A DNA stretch of 64,000 nt from Chlorobiaceae bacterium (GCA_013334865.1 JAAXWS010000006.1:69306-133305), one strand, 5' to 3'. Counted from the first letter of the stretch, positions 7,697 to 33,521 are shown. Notes: generated by a model not told the origin, from the letters alone. A program made the numbers and translations.

Positions 7697-8104
7697 ATGG
7701 AGGGATACCGCGACATCCTGGTAGCGATCGACTGCTCGCCCGTAGACGAAACGTTGCTTGACCATGTGTCGGCATTGGCCGCGCCGCTCGGCGCGCGCGT
7801 GCACCTGCTGCACGTGGTACACTCCCACACCCTGGACCAGGAGCGCACCCTGCGGGAACAGGCCATGCAAGCCCTCGAACGCTACCGTACCACATTGACG
7901 CACGATGGCTTGGAGGTCGAGCTGCACATCAGGAGCGGTGAACCCGACCGGGAGATCCTGAAGGAGATCGGCGAGCAGCGCTACGACCTGCTGGCCCTGG
8001 CGGCTCATGGCCACGGGATGCTGGAAAGGGCTCTGTTCGGGAGCGTGTCGAGACGAATCCGCGACAAGGTAAGTATCCCGTTGCTGTTGGTCGGGGCGGG
8101 ATGA
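7697..8104 (+). CDS. Universal stress protein UspA family
   Basis: YRDILVAIDCSPVDETLLDHV and LAAHGHGMLERALFGSVSRRI. Confidence 0.93.
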   Translation: MEGYRDILVAIDCSPVDETLLDHVSALAAPLGARVHLLHVVHSHTLDQERTLREQAMQALERYRTTLTHDGLEVELHIRSGEPDREILKEIGEQRYDLLALAAHGHGMLERALFGSVSRRIRDKVSIPLLLVGAG

Positions 8105-8120
8105 ATTGGCGGATGAGAGC

Positions 8121-8173
8121 TACCCATATGCCGCCCCTACGGGGCTGGGGATCGGGACCGTAGGGCGACATGT
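8121..8173. repeat. REP-like palindromic repeat (composite, inverted)
   Basis: CATATGCCGCCCCTACGGGGCTGGGGATCGGGACCGTAGGGCGACATG; related copies at 8719-9182. Confidence 0.8.
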
Positions 8174-8183
8174 TTTGCGACCT

Positions 8184-8636
8184 TTATGTGAAGATGTAAC
8201 GGTCGTCGTATTCGATCTTGAACTCTTCGAGCATGGCACGGTACTCCTCGGCGAAGGTCCTCATGCCGTGGTGCTCTTTCTGGTTGCGGATATAATCGAT
8301 CACGTTGGGAACGGCATCCTTGCTGTAAGAAAATGCCCCATAGCCATCCTGCCATTCAAAACGTCCGGGCATGAACTGCCTGCTGTTCAGCCATTGGGCC
8401 GAAGAGGCCTTCATTTCCCTGACAAGATCCGAAATCGCCTGGGTGGGGCGCAACCCGATGAGAAGGTGGACATGGTCCGCCATGCCGTCGATGGCGAGAA
8501 GCTTGTGGCCGTAATTCTGGACGATCGTGCTCAGGTAACGGTACAGTTCCTGCCGAGCAGGGCCACGTAAGAGGTATTCCCGACCCTTGACGGCGAAAAC
8601 GACCTGGATATGGATTTGTGTGTAGGTGTTAGCCAT
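8184..8636 (-). mobile_element. REP-associated tyrosine transposase (RAYT/IS200-like Y1 transposase, TnpA_REP)
   Basis: MANTYTQIHIQVVFAVKGREYLL, HUH motif DHVHLLIGL, catalytic-Tyr region NVIDYIRNQKEHH; REP-like palindromes on both flanks. The track ORF starts further upstream at 8825. Confidence 0.92.
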
Positions 8637-8718
8637 ATCGATCCAGCATGCCTTGTCAGTATAACCGAATATATAAAATGGCGGGTTATATATAAATATG
8701 ATATTGCGCAATATTATG

Positions 8719-9182
8719 CATATGCCGCCCCTACGGGGCTGGGGATCGGCCCTGTAGGGGCCGCATATGGGTAGCGCGGGGTGAGCGCAGCGAACCCCAG
8801 GTGACCGGCAATATGATCGAATCATATTGGATTCAGCCCCGTAGGGGCGGCATGTTCGACGCGGCGCAGGGATTTTCGGAACGCCGACAGGCTACCCATA
8901 TGCCGCCCCTGCCGGGGCTGGGGACCGGCCCTGTAGGGGGCCGCATATGGGTAGCGCGTGGTGAGCGCAGCGAACCCCGGGTAACCGAAAATATAATCGA
9001 ATCATATTGGATTCAGCCCCGTAGGGGCGGCATGTTCGACGCGGCGCAGGGATTTTCGGAACGCCGACAGGCTACCCATATGCCGCCCCTACGGGGCTGG
9101 AAAATCATTTTCATGGCGATGGCCAGCTACCGATATGCCGCCCCTGACGGGGCTTGGAATCGGACCTGAAGGGTGGCATGTT
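8719..9182. repeat. REP-like palindrome array with ~180-bp tandem duplication
   Basis: ATCATATTGGATTCAGCCCCGTAGGGGCGGCATGTTCGACGCGGCGCAGGGATTTTCGGA is identical at 8821 and 9001 (offset exactly 180). TATGCCGCCCC(TAC)GGGGCTGG and its complement recur about six times. Confidence 0.9.
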
Positions 9183-9206
9183 GTCCGCGTGGAGAAGGGC
9201 CTCGGG

Positions 9207-9947
9207 TTAAAGGGAGAGGCGCTTGAACACTTTCACTGGCAGGTGGATGATGCCCATCATGACGAACCTCCAGTACCAGGGAGTATAGAGCACATCCTGC
9301 TTCCTGCGTATCGCCTCGACGATGTCCCGCGCTACCTCTTCCGGCTTGGCGAGGAGCGCGGCGGGAAGTTCCATCCCTTCGGTCATGGGTGAATCCACCA
9401 TGCCGGGCTTGACGGTCAGGACATGCACCCCTTTCCTGTAGAGCCTGGAACGCAGCCCCTCGCAGAATGCGGTCACGGCGGCCTTTGACGCACCGTAGAC
9501 GTAGTTGGCCGGCCGGCCACGGTCGCCGGCGACCGAGCTGATGACCGCCAGGGTTCCGCTCCCCTGGCGCTCCATGATGTTGGCGAGCCTGGAGAGCAGG
9601 CTGACGGTGCTCATGGCGTTGGTCTGCAGTTCGCGCAGCGCTTCGTCAGGATCCGCTTCGCACTTTTTCTGGTCGCCGAGGGTGCCGTAGGCGACGAGGA
9701 CCACGTCGAACCGGCCCATCGACGTATACGCGGCATCGAGCGCCGCCTGGTGGGCGTCGATATCATTTGCATCGAGACTGGCGGTCCTGACCGATCCGGC
9801 GCCACGTACCTTCAGGTCCCCGGCGATGCCGGAGAGGCGCTCCTGGCTCCGCGCCATCAGGAACATGTTCGCCCCTTGCGCGGCGAACAGCCTGGCCGTA
9901 GCTTCGGCGATGGCCGATGCGGCCCCGATGATAAGGATGTTCTGCAT
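9207..9947 (-). CDS. SDR, decaprenylphosphoryl-2-keto-ribose reductase-like (DprE2-like)
   Basis: MQNILIIGAASAIAEATARLFAAQGA...VVLVAYGTLGDQ...ANYVYGASKAAVTAFCEGL...RFVMMGIIHLPVKVFKRL resembles Rv3791; adjacent to the DprE1-like gene. True start at 9947, not the track ORF start. Confidence 0.85.
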   Translation of the reverse strand: MQNILIIGAASAIAEATARLFAAQGANMFLMARSQERLSGIAGDLKVRGAGSVRTASLDANDIDAHQAALDAAYTSMGRFDVVLVAYGTLGDQKKCEADPDEALRELQTNAMSTVSLLSRLANIMERQGSGTLAVISSVAGDRGRPANYVYGASKAAVTAFCEGLRSRLYRKGVHVLTVKPGMVDSPMTEGMELPAALLAKPEEVARDIVEAIRRKQDVLYTPWYWRFVMMGIIHLPVKVFKRLSL

Positions 9948-11254
9948 CAATCCAGCCCCACTCTTTTTGATTGTTGTGATATGAACCGGCCCTTCGCGCC
10001 ATACGCCTCCCTGACCGCCTGGAACCGCTCCCAGTCGGGATAGCCGCGCCTGAAGCTCTCCGCGCTCATGCGGGAGTCCTTGGTGAGGTAGAGCCGTCCT
10101 CCGTACCCGAGCACCATGGCGTCGAGCCGGTCCAGCAAGGGGAAAAGCTCCTTCTCGACCTTGAAATCGAGGGCAAGGGTGAATCCCTCCACAGGGAAGC
10201 TGAGCAGGTTGGCGTTCCGCCTGCCGAAGGCTTTCAGGACGGCCAGGAAGGAGCCCCTCCCGGAGGCGACGATCTCCTTCAGGATGGCGTCCATCGCCGG
10301 ATAGCCGCCCTCTTTCGGGACGACAAACTGGTACTGCGTGAAGCCGTTGCTTCCGTACATGCGGTTCCACCCGCCGATGCTGTCGAGCGGATAGAAGAAC
10401 GGCTCGTAGTACAGGCGGCTTACGACAGACTTCGCCCTGATCCTGTGGTAGTAGAGGGTGTTGAAGGCCTTGATCGAGTAACGGTTCAGCAGTGCGGAAG
10501 GCAGGTCGACCGGCAGGTCGATCCGCGACGTGCGGCTCCCTTTTTCCGGCTCCCCTTCCGGAGCATGGTCGCCGGTCATCAGCAGTGAGCGCCCCAGCGA
10601 CTCACCTCCCGAAATGCAGTCGATCCAGGCGACCGAATAGGGGCTTGATTCATGGAGGGCGAAAAGCTCGAGGCTCTCCCTGAGGTTCGGGGACTTGTAG
10701 GTGACCTGGTCGATGAGGAGGCTGCCTACCGGCTTCAGGCGGATCGACGCGGAGCGGATGATCCCGGTGAGGCCCATGCCGCCGCAGGTCGCCCTGAAGA
10801 GTTCAGGATTCTCGTGCGGCGAACAGCGGAGCGTGCGCCCGGGCTCCAGGGCCAGGTCGATAAACCCGACATGGTCGCAGAAGCAGCCCGCCACATGGTG
10901 GTTCTTGCCGTGCACGTCGCTGGCGATGGCCCCGCCGACCGTCACGAATCGGGTGCCTGGAGTGACCGGCAGGAACCACCCCCTGGGGGCGAACACCTCG
11001 AGGATCCCGTTCAGGGTGACCCCGGCTTCGCAATGCAGCAGCCCGGTCTCCTCGTCGAACGCGAGCATATGGTCCAGCCACCGGGTGCTGATCATGTTCC
11101 CGCCGAGCGAGCTGTCCCCATAGCTCCTCCCGAGCCCCCGGGCGATCGCCCCCTCCGGGCACGCCCGAAGGGCGTCGTCGAGCCCTCCGGGCGTCTTCGG
11201 ATAGGCGACCTGGGCATCAACGACCGGATACCGCCCCCATCCGGATATCTTCAT
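9947..11254 (-). CDS. FAD-linked oxidoreductase, decaprenylphosphoryl-ribose oxidase-like (DprE1-like)
   Basis: IARGLGRSYGDSSLGGN, VTPGTRFVTVGGAIASDVHGKNHHVAGCF, GWNRMYGSNGFTQYQFVVP, YGGRLYLTKDSR; parallels Rv3790. Confidence 0.88.
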   Translation of the reverse strand: MKISGWGRYPVVDAQVAYPKTPGGLDDALRACPEGAIARGLGRSYGDSSLGGNMISTRWLDHMLAFDEETGLLHCEAGVTLNGILEVFAPRGWFLPVTPGTRFVTVGGAIASDVHGKNHHVAGCFCDHVGFIDLALEPGRTLRCSPHENPELFRATCGGMGLTGIIRSASIRLKPVGSLLIDQVTYKSPNLRESLELFALHESSPYSVAWIDCISGGESLGRSLLMTGDHAPEGEPEKGSRTSRIDLPVDLPSALLNRYSIKAFNTLYYHRIRAKSVVSRLYYEPFFYPLDSIGGWNRMYGSNGFTQYQFVVPKEGGYPAMDAILKEIVASGRGSFLAVLKAFGRRNANLLSFPVEGFTLALDFKVEKELFPLLDRLDAMVLGYGGRLYLTKDSRMSAESFRRGYPDWERFQAVREAYGAKGRFISQQSKRVGLD

Positions 11255-11655
11255 GATTCCGCTCCCTGTTGAAACACGAATTGTTTGTCAAGATGGTACT
11301 TCGACAGGTACCCTATCGCCAGGCCGATCACTCCGCCAAGATACCGCAGTTCCTTCGAATGGAAAAGATGGTTGAACCCGAACTCGAATCCCCAGAAGAT
11401 GGCTGTGGTCACGACGCCCATCAGCGAATAGAGGACGAAGGTCCTTCCGTCGTGGACGGCGTCTTTCGCAGTGAAACGGAAGATGTACCGCTTGTCGAGT
11501 AGGTACTTGACGACGAGTCCCGCCAGCGTTCCCGAGGCAACGGAGAAGAGGATGGGGTACATGCCGGCGTAGAGCCTCGTGGCGACATCCTGCACACCGA
11601 TGTTCACGGCGGTGGCGACGACGGCAAACGCGGTGTAAGCTAACGTTCGTTGCAT
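11251..11655 (-). CDS. GtrA-like membrane protein
   Basis: 134 aa, four hydrophobic segments, GLVVKYLLDKRYIFRF and SKYHLDKQFVF GtrA motifs. Confidence 0.88.
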   Translation of the reverse strand: MQRTLAYTAFAVVATAVNIGVQDVATRLYAGMYPILFSVASGTLAGLVVKYLLDKRYIFRFTAKDAVHDGRTFVLYSLMGVVTTAIFWGFEFGFNHLFHSKELRYLGGVIGLAIGYLSKYHLDKQFVFQQGAES

Positions 11656-11666
11656 CGGTCACCCGG

Positions 11667-12548
11667 TCAGAACAGGATGGCAAGAATGAACACTGCGGCG
11701 AACATCCCGCCCGCCAGCAGGCTTACCTTATCCGTAACGGCGAACAGCACTGGATCTTCGTGCATCAGCCCACGATGCGCGATCAGCCATACCCGGCTTA
11801 TCCAGAACAGCAGGATCGGGCACGCCAGCCAGATGAGCTCGTGGGTCCGGTAGATCTGCACGGTCCTGGCATCCTGGATATACAGGGCAAGGACCAGGAC
11901 GGACAGGTAGCCGGAAGAGGCGCCGAGGTTGGCGATGATCTCGAGGTCTGAGGGGAAATACCCACGGCCTCCCGCCCGTTCTCGCATGCCGTTCGACCTT
12001 GCGTCGAGCAGTTCGGCATAGCGTTTCACCAGAGCCAGGCTGAGGAAGAGAAACATCGAAAAAGCGAGAATCCAGAAGGTGGGAACCAGGCCGCAGGCGA
12101 AGGCACCGGCAATGATGCGTACCGTGTACAGCCCCGCCAGCACGATGGTATCGACGCCCATCATCCGCTTCAGGAAGCGCGAGTAGGCGATCGAAAGCAG
12201 GAAGTAGCAGACGAGCGCGACACTGAAAAGCGGAGGCAGCAGGGCAACGGAAAGGGAGACGGCAATACCGGATAGCAGGATAGCCGAAACGACGGCCGAC
12301 CGGAGTGGAAGGCGTCCGGCTGCGAGCGGCCGGTGCCGCTTGGTTGGATGCCGACGGTCATGCTCGAGATCGAGCAGGTCGTTGATGAGGTAGCCGCCCG
12401 ATGCCGCAAGGCAGAACAGGCAGTACGCAAGGAGCGCCCCGGCTATCATGGCGCCGTTGAAGAACTGGTGCGCCGCGAGCAGCGGGATGAATACGAGCAG
12501 GTTTTTCAGCCACTGGTGCGGGCGAAGCGCCCTGATCCATGATTTCAC
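11667..12548 (-). CDS. UbiA-family decaprenyl-phosphate phosphoribosyltransferase-like protein
   Basis: RALRPHQWLKNLLVFIPLLA and NDLLDLEHDRRHPTKRHRPLAAG (UbiA Asp-rich motif); GTG start at 12548 with AGGAGG upstream. Confidence 0.86.
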   Translation of the reverse strand: MKSWIRALRPHQWLKNLLVFIPLLAAHQFFNGAMIAGALLAYCLFCLAASGGYLINDLLDLEHDRRHPTKRHRPLAAGRLPLRSAVVSAILLSGIAVSLSVALLPPLFSVALVCYFLLSIAYSRFLKRMMGVDTIVLAGLYTVRIIAGAFACGLVPTFWILAFSMFLFLSLALVKRYAELLDARSNGMRERAGGRGYFPSDLEIIANLGASSGYLSVLVLALYIQDARTVQIYRTHELIWLACPILLFWISRVWLIAHRGLMHEDPVLFAVTDKVSLLAGGMFAAVFILAILF

Positions 12549-12592
12549 TCTTCGAGTCCTCCTGACGGACAAATGGGAAGCAAGCCATGACG

Positions 12593-12637
12593 GCTGCCAA
12601 GTACAAGTGCGGTAATATAGCACTTGTACTTGGCAGC
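12593..12637. promoter_or_regulatory. Perfect 18-bp inverted repeat upstream of the ubiA-gtrA-dprE1-dprE2 cassette
   Basis: GCTGCCAAGTACAAGTGC-GGTAATATA-GCACTTGTACTTGGCAGC. Confidence 0.8.
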
Positions 12638-12806
12638 TTCACCTTCCCTCGGCCAGCATTGCGGATCCAGCCATGGTTCTTCAGCGGATATTTCGTATCA
12701 TACATACCCTTACCCGGTATAGGTAATAAGCACAAAGAAGAGGATGGATTACCACATCCGGAGTGAACAGGTTACAAGCATACAAAACGGTCTACTGGAG
12801 CACACC

Positions 12807-31856: not shown

Positions 31857-33521
31857 TCATTCTTTCGGCACCTTCGCCGGATTGACATACAGGGAAAAGT
31901 TGTCGGTCGACTCCTGCAGACGCCAGCCATTTATCACCTGCATGGTCGCATCCGAGCCGAACTTCCCCGGGAGGTCGGGACGCGGCGAGGCTTTTCTGTA
32001 CACGATGGCGTAATCGACCTCCGAATCGAGGCGACGGCCGACCTCCTTCCGGTACGAGCCCACCTCGGTATTCAGGACCCAGTCGATGCCGAGAGGATTG
32101 GGCGTGCCCGAAAGCAGATGCGCGAACGTGATATCCGGCAGGACGGCATAGGGCCGGCTTCCCGCACGCCCGACCAGCCGCATCAGCTCAACATAGAGCC
32201 GGTATTGCTCCGGCGTCCCCCGGACCCCCCTGAGCGCGGGGCTGATCCCGCCCATGTCCGCCGTCATCCCGGTCCGCCTGACCGGCCCCTCGAGCGAATA
32301 GAACAGCCTATGCCCCTGCCAGAAGACAGCGAGCGCCAAAGGAAACACCGTCAATGCCGCCATCCTGAAACCTCCTGAACGCCGGCAACAGGGTTCAAGG
32401 ACAGCGGCGACGGTCAGCACCGACGGCGCCGAATACAGCACCGGAGTCAGGTATCCCCAGGAGATCGAGGCGCACCAGGCGATTGCATGCATCGCGACAA
32501 GCAGCAGCCACGAATCGGCCCGGGACTTCGCAAGCATGACCAGGCTATAGAACAGCGTGGCGACAAAAAGCGAATTGAAGAGCTCGAGCGGCTGGAACGA
32601 ATCCGCTGAAGCACGATAAAACAGTGCAAGGCAGGCAAGGAACATGCCGACGGCCCCGATCAGAGCGGCACCAGGCGCCCATCGGCAGGCACTGCTGCGG
32701 AAGAGTGAGAGAGGCAGGATCGCCAGCAATGGCCAGGCCCCGTAGCGGCACCCCTCATGGGACAGGCTGCGCGCATAGTTCTCAAAACCGGCAAACAGCA
32801 GATCCCGAGCCGTAGTCTGGGACGAGATGGCGGCCCAGAACAGCAGGCTGGAACCGAATCGTTCCAGGATAAGGGAAAACAGCAGAACGGAACCAAGCAA
32901 GGAGAGCGCATAGATCGCCACCGGGCGCCATCGCCTCTCCATGAAGATCAGCATGAACAGCAGCATGACGGGAACAAGGAGAAATGGCTGCTTCGAGCCG
33001 GCGGCCAGGATTCCAAACCATGCGGAAAGCACCAGGAATCCCCGGTGCCCCTGCAAGCCAGCCATCATCGAGCCCAGGGCAAGCACGGAAAAGAAGATAC
33101 CGTCGATGGTGTGCCATGCCATGGGGGGGAAGACATGGGCTGAAAAAACGAATGCAAGCGCGGCAGCCACCGAGGTAAAACTGTCAGACCATGAGAAACA
33201 CCGTTTGGCGAGCACCGCCGAAAGGGCGCTGTAGAGCGCCATCTGCAGGAAAACGAAAATCCTGTCGACCAGAACCGGGGCGAAGGAAAACGGCCAGGAG
33301 AACACGAAGCTGTGCAGGATCGGGGTGACGGGCGGTCGGACATAGACGATGTGCTCGTAGAGACGGGCACCAAGGGAAACCTGGTGCGCCAGTCCCAGAA
33401 CGAAGCCGGTGTCGTTGTTGTCGATCCCGTAGGGGGCGTAAAGCCATATGTAAAGCCCGACCACGAGGGGGAACACCAACCAGGAAGTCGGGAATGCCGG
33501 ATACGTCCTGTTACCGTTCAT
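31857..33521 (-). CDS. GT-C-like polytopic membrane protein (putative lipid-linked sugar glycosyltransferase)
   Basis: About 11 hydrophobic segments, first-loop acidic motif YGIDNNDTGFVLGLAHQ, YEHIVYVRPPVTP; C-terminal soluble part. Confidence 0.6.
   Translation of the reverse strand: MNGNRTYPAFPTSWLVFPLVVGLYIWLYAPYGIDNNDTGFVLGLAHQVSLGARLYEHIVYVRPPVTPILHSFVFSWPFSFAPVLVDRIFVFLQMALYSALSAVLAKRCFSWSDSFTSVAAALAFVFSAHVFPPMAWHTIDGIFFSVLALGSMMAGLQGHRGFLVLSAWFGILAAGSKQPFLLVPVMLLFMLIFMERRWRPVAIYALSLLGSVLLFSLILERFGSSLLFWAAISSQTTARDLLFAGFENYARSLSHEGCRYGAWPLLAILPLSLFRSSACRWAPGAALIGAVGMFLACLALFYRASADSFQPLELFNSLFVATLFYSLVMLAKSRADSWLLLVAMHAIAWCASISWGYLTPVLYSAPSVLTVAAVLEPCCRRSGGFRMAALTVFPLALAVFWQGHRLFYSLEGPVRRTGMTADMGGISPALRGVRGTPEQYRLYVELMRLVGRAGSRPYAVLPDITFAHLLSGTPNPLGIDWVLNTEVGSYRKEVGRRLDSEVDYAIVYRKASPRPDLPGKFGSDATMQVINGWRLQESTDNFSLYVNPAKVPKE

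Follow-up and report, generated by a model that had tools for sequence, protein, structure and literature searches.

D-Arabinose is a building block of the tuberculosis cell wall, and the mycobacterial decaprenyl-phosphoryl-arabinose (DPA) pathway comprises Rv3806c, Rv3807c, Rv3789, DprE1 (Rv3790) and DprE2 (Rv3791). Both the pathway and its occurrence in Gram-negative bacteria have already been published (PMC11127046, PMC12369383, PMC5080398). In Pseudomonas paraeruginosa, PSPA7_6245-6251 is a D-arabinofuranose synthesis cluster that includes ubiA (PMC12369383); the system modifies type IV pilin with alpha-1,5 D-Araf and includes the pilin-linked GT-C TfpW as well as a separate phosphatase, PA7_6246 (PMC11127046). 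The rhizobial noeC(N)HOP operon serves the D-arabinosylation of Nod factors, with noeC, noeH and noeO covering three of the DPA steps, noeP as the operon's own transferase, and noeN as a phosphatase candidate whose deletion only reduces arabinosylation (PMC5080398). In the three-component pentofuranose systems of Citrobacter youngae O1/O2, with GT136 (Kelly et al., 2024, PMC11127046), a UbiA-family polyprenyl-phosphate 5-phosphoribosyltransferase (PPPRS) leads to a polyprenyl-P-pentofuranose donor, followed by a flippase and a GT-C, and DprE1/E2 are listed for Araf-containing glycans (PMC11127046).

We analyzed a 64,000-nucleotide stretch of a Chlorobiaceae genome, here referred to as the window, in which four consecutive minus-strand genes fill positions 9207-12548. 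These are ubiA (11667-12548, 293 aa), gtrA (11251-11655), a dprE1-like gene (9947-11254) and a dprE2-like gene (9207-9947). The genes are arranged as one tight operon, with a gap of 11 bp between ubiA and gtrA, an overlap of 4 bp between gtrA and dprE1, and an overlap of 1 bp between dprE1 and dprE2. A Shine-Dalgarno sequence, AGGAGG (12558-12563, minus strand), fixes the GTG start of ubiA at 12548. An earlier note on this DNA had described four consecutive genes on one strand with overlapping ends and no adjacent arabinosyltransferase; the order and strand are as described and the operon contains no arabinosyltransferase or other GT-C pentosyltransferase, but only the two downstream junctions overlap. 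A GT-C-fold candidate, which the note had passed over, sits 19 kb away in the same window.

The cassette shares the same four enzyme and transport functions with the mycobacterial DPA pathway, including conserved Rv3806c and DprE1 active sites, but it has no Rv3807c-type phosphatase gene, no Emb or Aft nearby and an alanine in place of DprE1 Cys387, and its host is Gram-negative. A ubiA-containing cluster is shared with P. paraeruginosa, although neither a counterpart of PA7_6246 nor one of TfpW was found in the window system. The three noeC, noeH and noeO steps are likewise shared with rhizobia, whose dedicated transferase, phosphatase candidate and Nod-factor target set their operon apart. 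The C. youngae systems resemble the window cassette in the UbiA-family PPPRS donor route, followed there by a flippase and a GT-C; they have a HAD phosphatase fused to UbiA, a MATE-type flippase and GT136 within the locus, whereas the window cassette lacks a HAD, has a GtrA-type flippase candidate and has a GT-C candidate only at an unlinked site.

The window UbiA is Rv3806c/NoeC-like and lacks an N-terminal HAD phosphatase domain. It scored 402 bits against NF006088 (cut-off 351), with the match limited to the UbiA half of that model (187-480 of 482), and 181 bits against decaprenyl-phosphate phosphoribosyltransferase models, below the NCBI cut-off of 207. Its best PDB match was 8j8j, the M. 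tuberculosis phosphoribosyltransferase Rv3806c (E = 1e-29). When compared with 14 active-site residues listed for Rv3806c (PMC13299623), 11 were identical in the window protein, as was D77 (R22, K28, Y70, N73, D77, K87, R90, Y131, Y138, K143, R160 and K191), and three were changed (Q135S, V153L and A156L). The UbiA fold, the NDxxDxxxDxxHPTKR motif and the PRPP-binding residues of Rv3806c are all present, and the assignment as a polyprenyl-phosphate 5-phosphoribosyltransferase (DPPRS/PPPRS) with predicted PRPP-dependent activity is thus well supported by homology. Ubi-297 (PMC9235831) was considered and set aside, as it belongs to a different UbiA group.

For the remaining three proteins, family and structure matches also point to the DPA pathway. 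GtrA matched PF04138 (E = 8.5e-9) and NF037976 (184.7 bits, cut-off 50), and is a candidate flippase or anchor of the Rv3789 type for a lipid-linked pentose, flipping being predicted from the family. The DprE1-like FAD oxidase (polyprenylphosphoryl-ribose 2'-oxidase) matched mycobacterial DprE1 in the PDB at E = 2e-80 and retains the catalytic residues H132, K134, Q334, Q336, K367 and K418; over its full length it scored 406.7 bits against NF053785 (DprE1), under the cut-off of 500, and is therefore not a mycobacterial DprE1 equivalog by that rule. The DprE2-like short-chain reductase carries the SDR serine and YxxxK motif (ISS...YGASK) and scored 339.7 bits against NF005489 (cut-off 267) and 209.6 bits against NF053786 (DprE2; cut-off 250). 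In the PDB it matched the DprE2 subunit in the DprE1-DprE2 complex best (E = 1e-33), the next SDR following at 3e-19, so that an FAD oxidase with the DprE1 catalytic residues is adjacent to an SDR most like DprE2, as in a 2'-epimerase pair. Scores of DprE1, DprE2 and the decaprenyl-phosphate phosphoribosyltransferase below the NCBI equivalog cut-offs are as expected for non-mycobacterial members. In M. tuberculosis, benzothiazinones target Cys387 of DprE1; the corresponding residue here is alanine, which predicts insensitivity to covalent benzothiazinones.

The parallel that the earlier note had drawn with Rv3806c, Rv3789, Rv3790 and Rv3791 is thus upheld by family and PDB matches together with the conserved catalytic residues. 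Its further proposal, polyprenyl-P-arabinofuranose (or a related ribose epimer) for a surface glycan, stands as far as the pathway is concerned: homology, the conserved catalytic residues and the arrangement of the operon give good support to a route from polyprenyl-P-ribose to polyprenyl-P-arabinose, while the product and the glycan are predictions. UbiA would move 5-phosphoribose from PRPP onto polyprenyl phosphate, giving lipid-P-ribose-5-P; a phosphatase presumably encoded elsewhere, since the fused HAD domain of the sister lineages has been lost, would take off the 5'-phosphate; DprE1 would oxidize and DprE2 reduce C2, converting ribose to arabinose; and GtrA may assist in moving the lipid-linked sugar across to the periplasmic face of the membrane. 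We consider it quite likely that these four steps yield polyprenyl-phosphate-D-arabinofuranose at the inner membrane. The four genes very probably make a lipid-carried furanose, predicted to be D-arabinose, and the cassette suggests that green sulfur bacteria have D-arabinofuranose in their envelope. In a fifth step, a GT-C would pass the arabinofuranose to an envelope glycan. C. tepidum has a lipooligosaccharide without O antigen (PMC12285230), and the acceptor may therefore be the lipooligosaccharide core, an exopolysaccharide or a protein.

The UbiA step could be read differently. The enzyme might prenylate or phosphoribosylate another acceptor, such as a quinone, a pigment or a carotenoid lipid, with the DprE pair acting on the product; UbiA proteins are versatile, and green sulfur bacteria have many UbiA-family enzymes in pigment synthesis. 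With the PRPP-binding residues of Rv3806c conserved, the best-matching models of DPPRS type and the grouping with DprE1, DprE2 and a phosphatase gene seen again in non-phototrophs, we regard such a role as very improbable.

The distribution of DprE1 is patchy: 17 of the 61 related genomes have a genuine orthologue, as do 9 of 37 in the family. A scan of public genomes confirmed at least 581 relatives, the best 80 of which came from Pseudomonadota, Bacteroidota, Campylobacterota and others, and this DprE1 is encoded on hundreds of Gram-negative contigs. In most of 96 further loci dprE1 is accompanied by the same genes, and the gene grouping is therefore not a matter of chance. The closest named relative among the matches listed was a Chlorobiaceae genome (locus L049), and in the DprE1 tree the window protein fell among those of other Chlorobiaceae (SH-aLRT 99), in the neighbourhood of proteobacterial cassettes. 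A "mycobacterial-type" label, as previously given to the cassette, accordingly describes the pathway and the best solved relatives but not the kinship, while homologous sets do, as the note stated, exist in Gram-negatives: they are common there, and the pathway is published for the Pseudomonas pilin, the rhizobial Nod factor and the Citrobacter O antigen. Horizontal transfer of the Chlorobiaceae cassette is not claimed, as monophyly with same-order cassettes was not rejected (AU p = 0.57). Two variants were encountered among the other loci. DprE1 and DprE2 are fused into one 832-aa protein on a Cloacimonadota contig (L082 9560-12058), and two contigs labelled as Klebsiella pneumoniae MAG (L062 and L094) carry cassettes very unlike each other and are probably misassigned bins.

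The cassettes differ in how the 5'-phosphatase is provided. Among 82 loci in which ubiA lies close to dprE1, 27 had a HAD phosphatase fused to the UbiA N terminus and about 28 had a separate HAD gene, usually directly downstream of dprE2; about 10, including L059, had a DUF212 (divergent PAP2) gene next to ubiA. About 16 had no recognised phosphatase, several of these lying on short contigs. Three unrelated phosphatase solutions thus recur next to the same core. Every other Chlorobiaceae copy with an intact ubiA has the fused HAD (L033, L034, L036-L039 and L049), whereas it is missing from the window UbiA and from that of the sister genome (G018, locus L032). The window and L032 sequences group together inside the fused-HAD clade, and the domain was therefore lost once. 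As a separate observation, the protein encoded beside dprE1 in a Leptolyngbya locus (L110 4491-6116) joins a HAD phosphatase to an LPG_synthase_TM domain and is a possible phosphatase-flippase fusion.

No 5'-phosphatase of the Rv3807c-like PAP2, HAD or DUF212 type was found in the window cassette, a gap that the earlier note had passed over, and targeted searches of the genome recovered neither a relative of the fused HAD nor a DUF212 phosphatase. These absences would also fit a decaying cassette that has lost its phosphatase domain and no longer makes the sugar donor, and decay does occur in the genus: in G006 (L035 1-3900) gtrA, dprE1 and dprE2 are kept beside a ubiA reduced to a C-terminal remnant (39% over 78 aa). 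In the window, however, all four frames are intact, and the cassette genes are under purifying selection between the two HAD-less species where this is testable, with dN/dS of about 0.13 for UbiA (dN 0.107, dS 0.814), about 0.18 for GtrA (dN 0.108, dS 0.584) and 0.14-0.20 for DprE1, compared in two parts (dN 0.107, dS 0.545 and dN 0.074, dS 0.541). We therefore consider decay improbable. Removal of the 5'-phosphate by a phosphatase encoded in trans is plausible, because Rv3807c is not essential in the mycobacterial case. Family searches of the genome returned HAD proteins of SerB-like and Gph-like types and three generic PAP2 proteins, which are possible stand-ins. A small PAP2 on contig C31 of the window genome (G000) was rejected for this role, as it looks exported and is common to cassette-free relatives. 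The locus represents a natural case in which a dedicated 5'-phosphatase was lost while the remaining pathway stayed under selection, and the HAD-less cassette allows the question of which phosphatase performs this step, a question that mycobacteria pose as well, to be put directly.

The best candidate for the final transfer is an orphan membrane protein of about 554 aa encoded at 31857-33521 on the minus strand, adjoining rnr. It had no Pfam or NCBIfam match. When a profile of its family was searched against 103 multi-spanning proteins from around cassettes and from controls, the six top-ranking hits were all the members of a single cassette-adjacent family. In L044 the gene of this family is placed between ubiA and dprE1, and in L085, L088, L099 and L104 it adjoins the cassette. 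Profile-profile comparison of the window family with this Bacteroidota family gave 96% (E = 3e-9 over 436 columns); the real score of 78.5 compared with a maximum of 41.6 for block-shuffled profiles and 21 for the reversed profile. An AlphaFold2 model built from the joint alignment, of sufficient confidence for use here (pLDDT 74, pTM 0.80), had as its best Foldseek matches in the PDB STT3 of oligosaccharyltransferase, EmbA/EmbB/EmbC, PMT and ALG6. The model and profiles indicate a GT-C fold and remote homology to the cassette-adjacent GT-Cs of Bacteroidota. Between the window and sister genomes the gene is under purifying selection (dN 0.241, dS 0.866).

Whether this protein handles the sugar of the cassette is a separate matter. 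Of the 61 relatives, G000 and G018 alone carry it, and these are exactly the genomes with the HAD-less cassette; the family match is also specific. The two genomes are sisters, however, and the co-occurrence counts as one event. The gene lies apart from the cassette, as do its distant relatives in five other Bacteroidota genomes, none of which adjoins one, and it is missing from the other cassette-bearing Chlorobiaceae, which must therefore use another transferase; other cassettes adjoin GT-Cs of unrelated families, one of them in G022 and L049. On this evidence we lean slightly towards a cassette that makes the lipid-linked pentose for another, unrecognised GT-C, with the orphan protein unrelated to it. 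That the orphan GT-C is the transferase for the cassette's sugar is an appreciable but tentative possibility. A wider reading, held more tentatively still, would join it with the cassette-adjacent Bacteroidota proteins in a new GT-C family of D-arabinofuranosyltransferases, here decorating lipooligosaccharide, exopolysaccharide or a surface protein, with the phosphatase in trans; such a family, if true, would lengthen the short list of arabinosyltransferases.

Other transferase candidates were rejected. A single PMT_2/GT83-like protein occurs in almost every relative, whether cassette-bearing or not, and the GT-C family that adjoins the cassette in G022 and L049 is missing from the window genome and also occurs in cassette-free relatives. 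An unclassified Chlorobiaceae GT-C-like family (L187 6491-7954, L039 7220-8692 and L049 12050-13678) lies beside the cassette in two genomes and elsewhere in a cassette-free sugar-nucleotide cluster.

In a limited literature search we found no earlier report of the pathway in Chlorobiaceae or of envelope D-arabinofuranose in green sulfur bacteria. The locus has two variant features, the lost phosphatase and the transferase candidate in trans.

The surroundings of the cassette were also inspected. A divergent rhodanese gene lies upstream of ubiA and an IS200-like (REP-associated) tyrosine transposase gene (8184-8825, minus strand) lies downstream, and the cassette therefore stands alone. Beside the transposase gene, between usp and the cassette, is a REP-like repeat array (8050-9210) with a 41-nt unit present five times, a 160-nt direct repeat at 8757 and 8937, and several perfect 20-nt inverted pairs. 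The window contains no detected Rfam family, and a search for a sigma-70-like promoter of the operon gave none. Upstream of ubiA, the intergenic region holds a perfect 18-bp inverted repeat, GCTGCCAAGTACAAGTGC, with a 9-nt loop (12593-12637), which has no counterpart at the corresponding place in L032. A dyad-like motif in the same rhodanese-ubiA region is conserved in both species (TACCGGGTAAGGGTA at about 12706-12728 in the window and TACCCGGTACGGGTA at about 10750-10775 in L032) and is possibly a regulator site.
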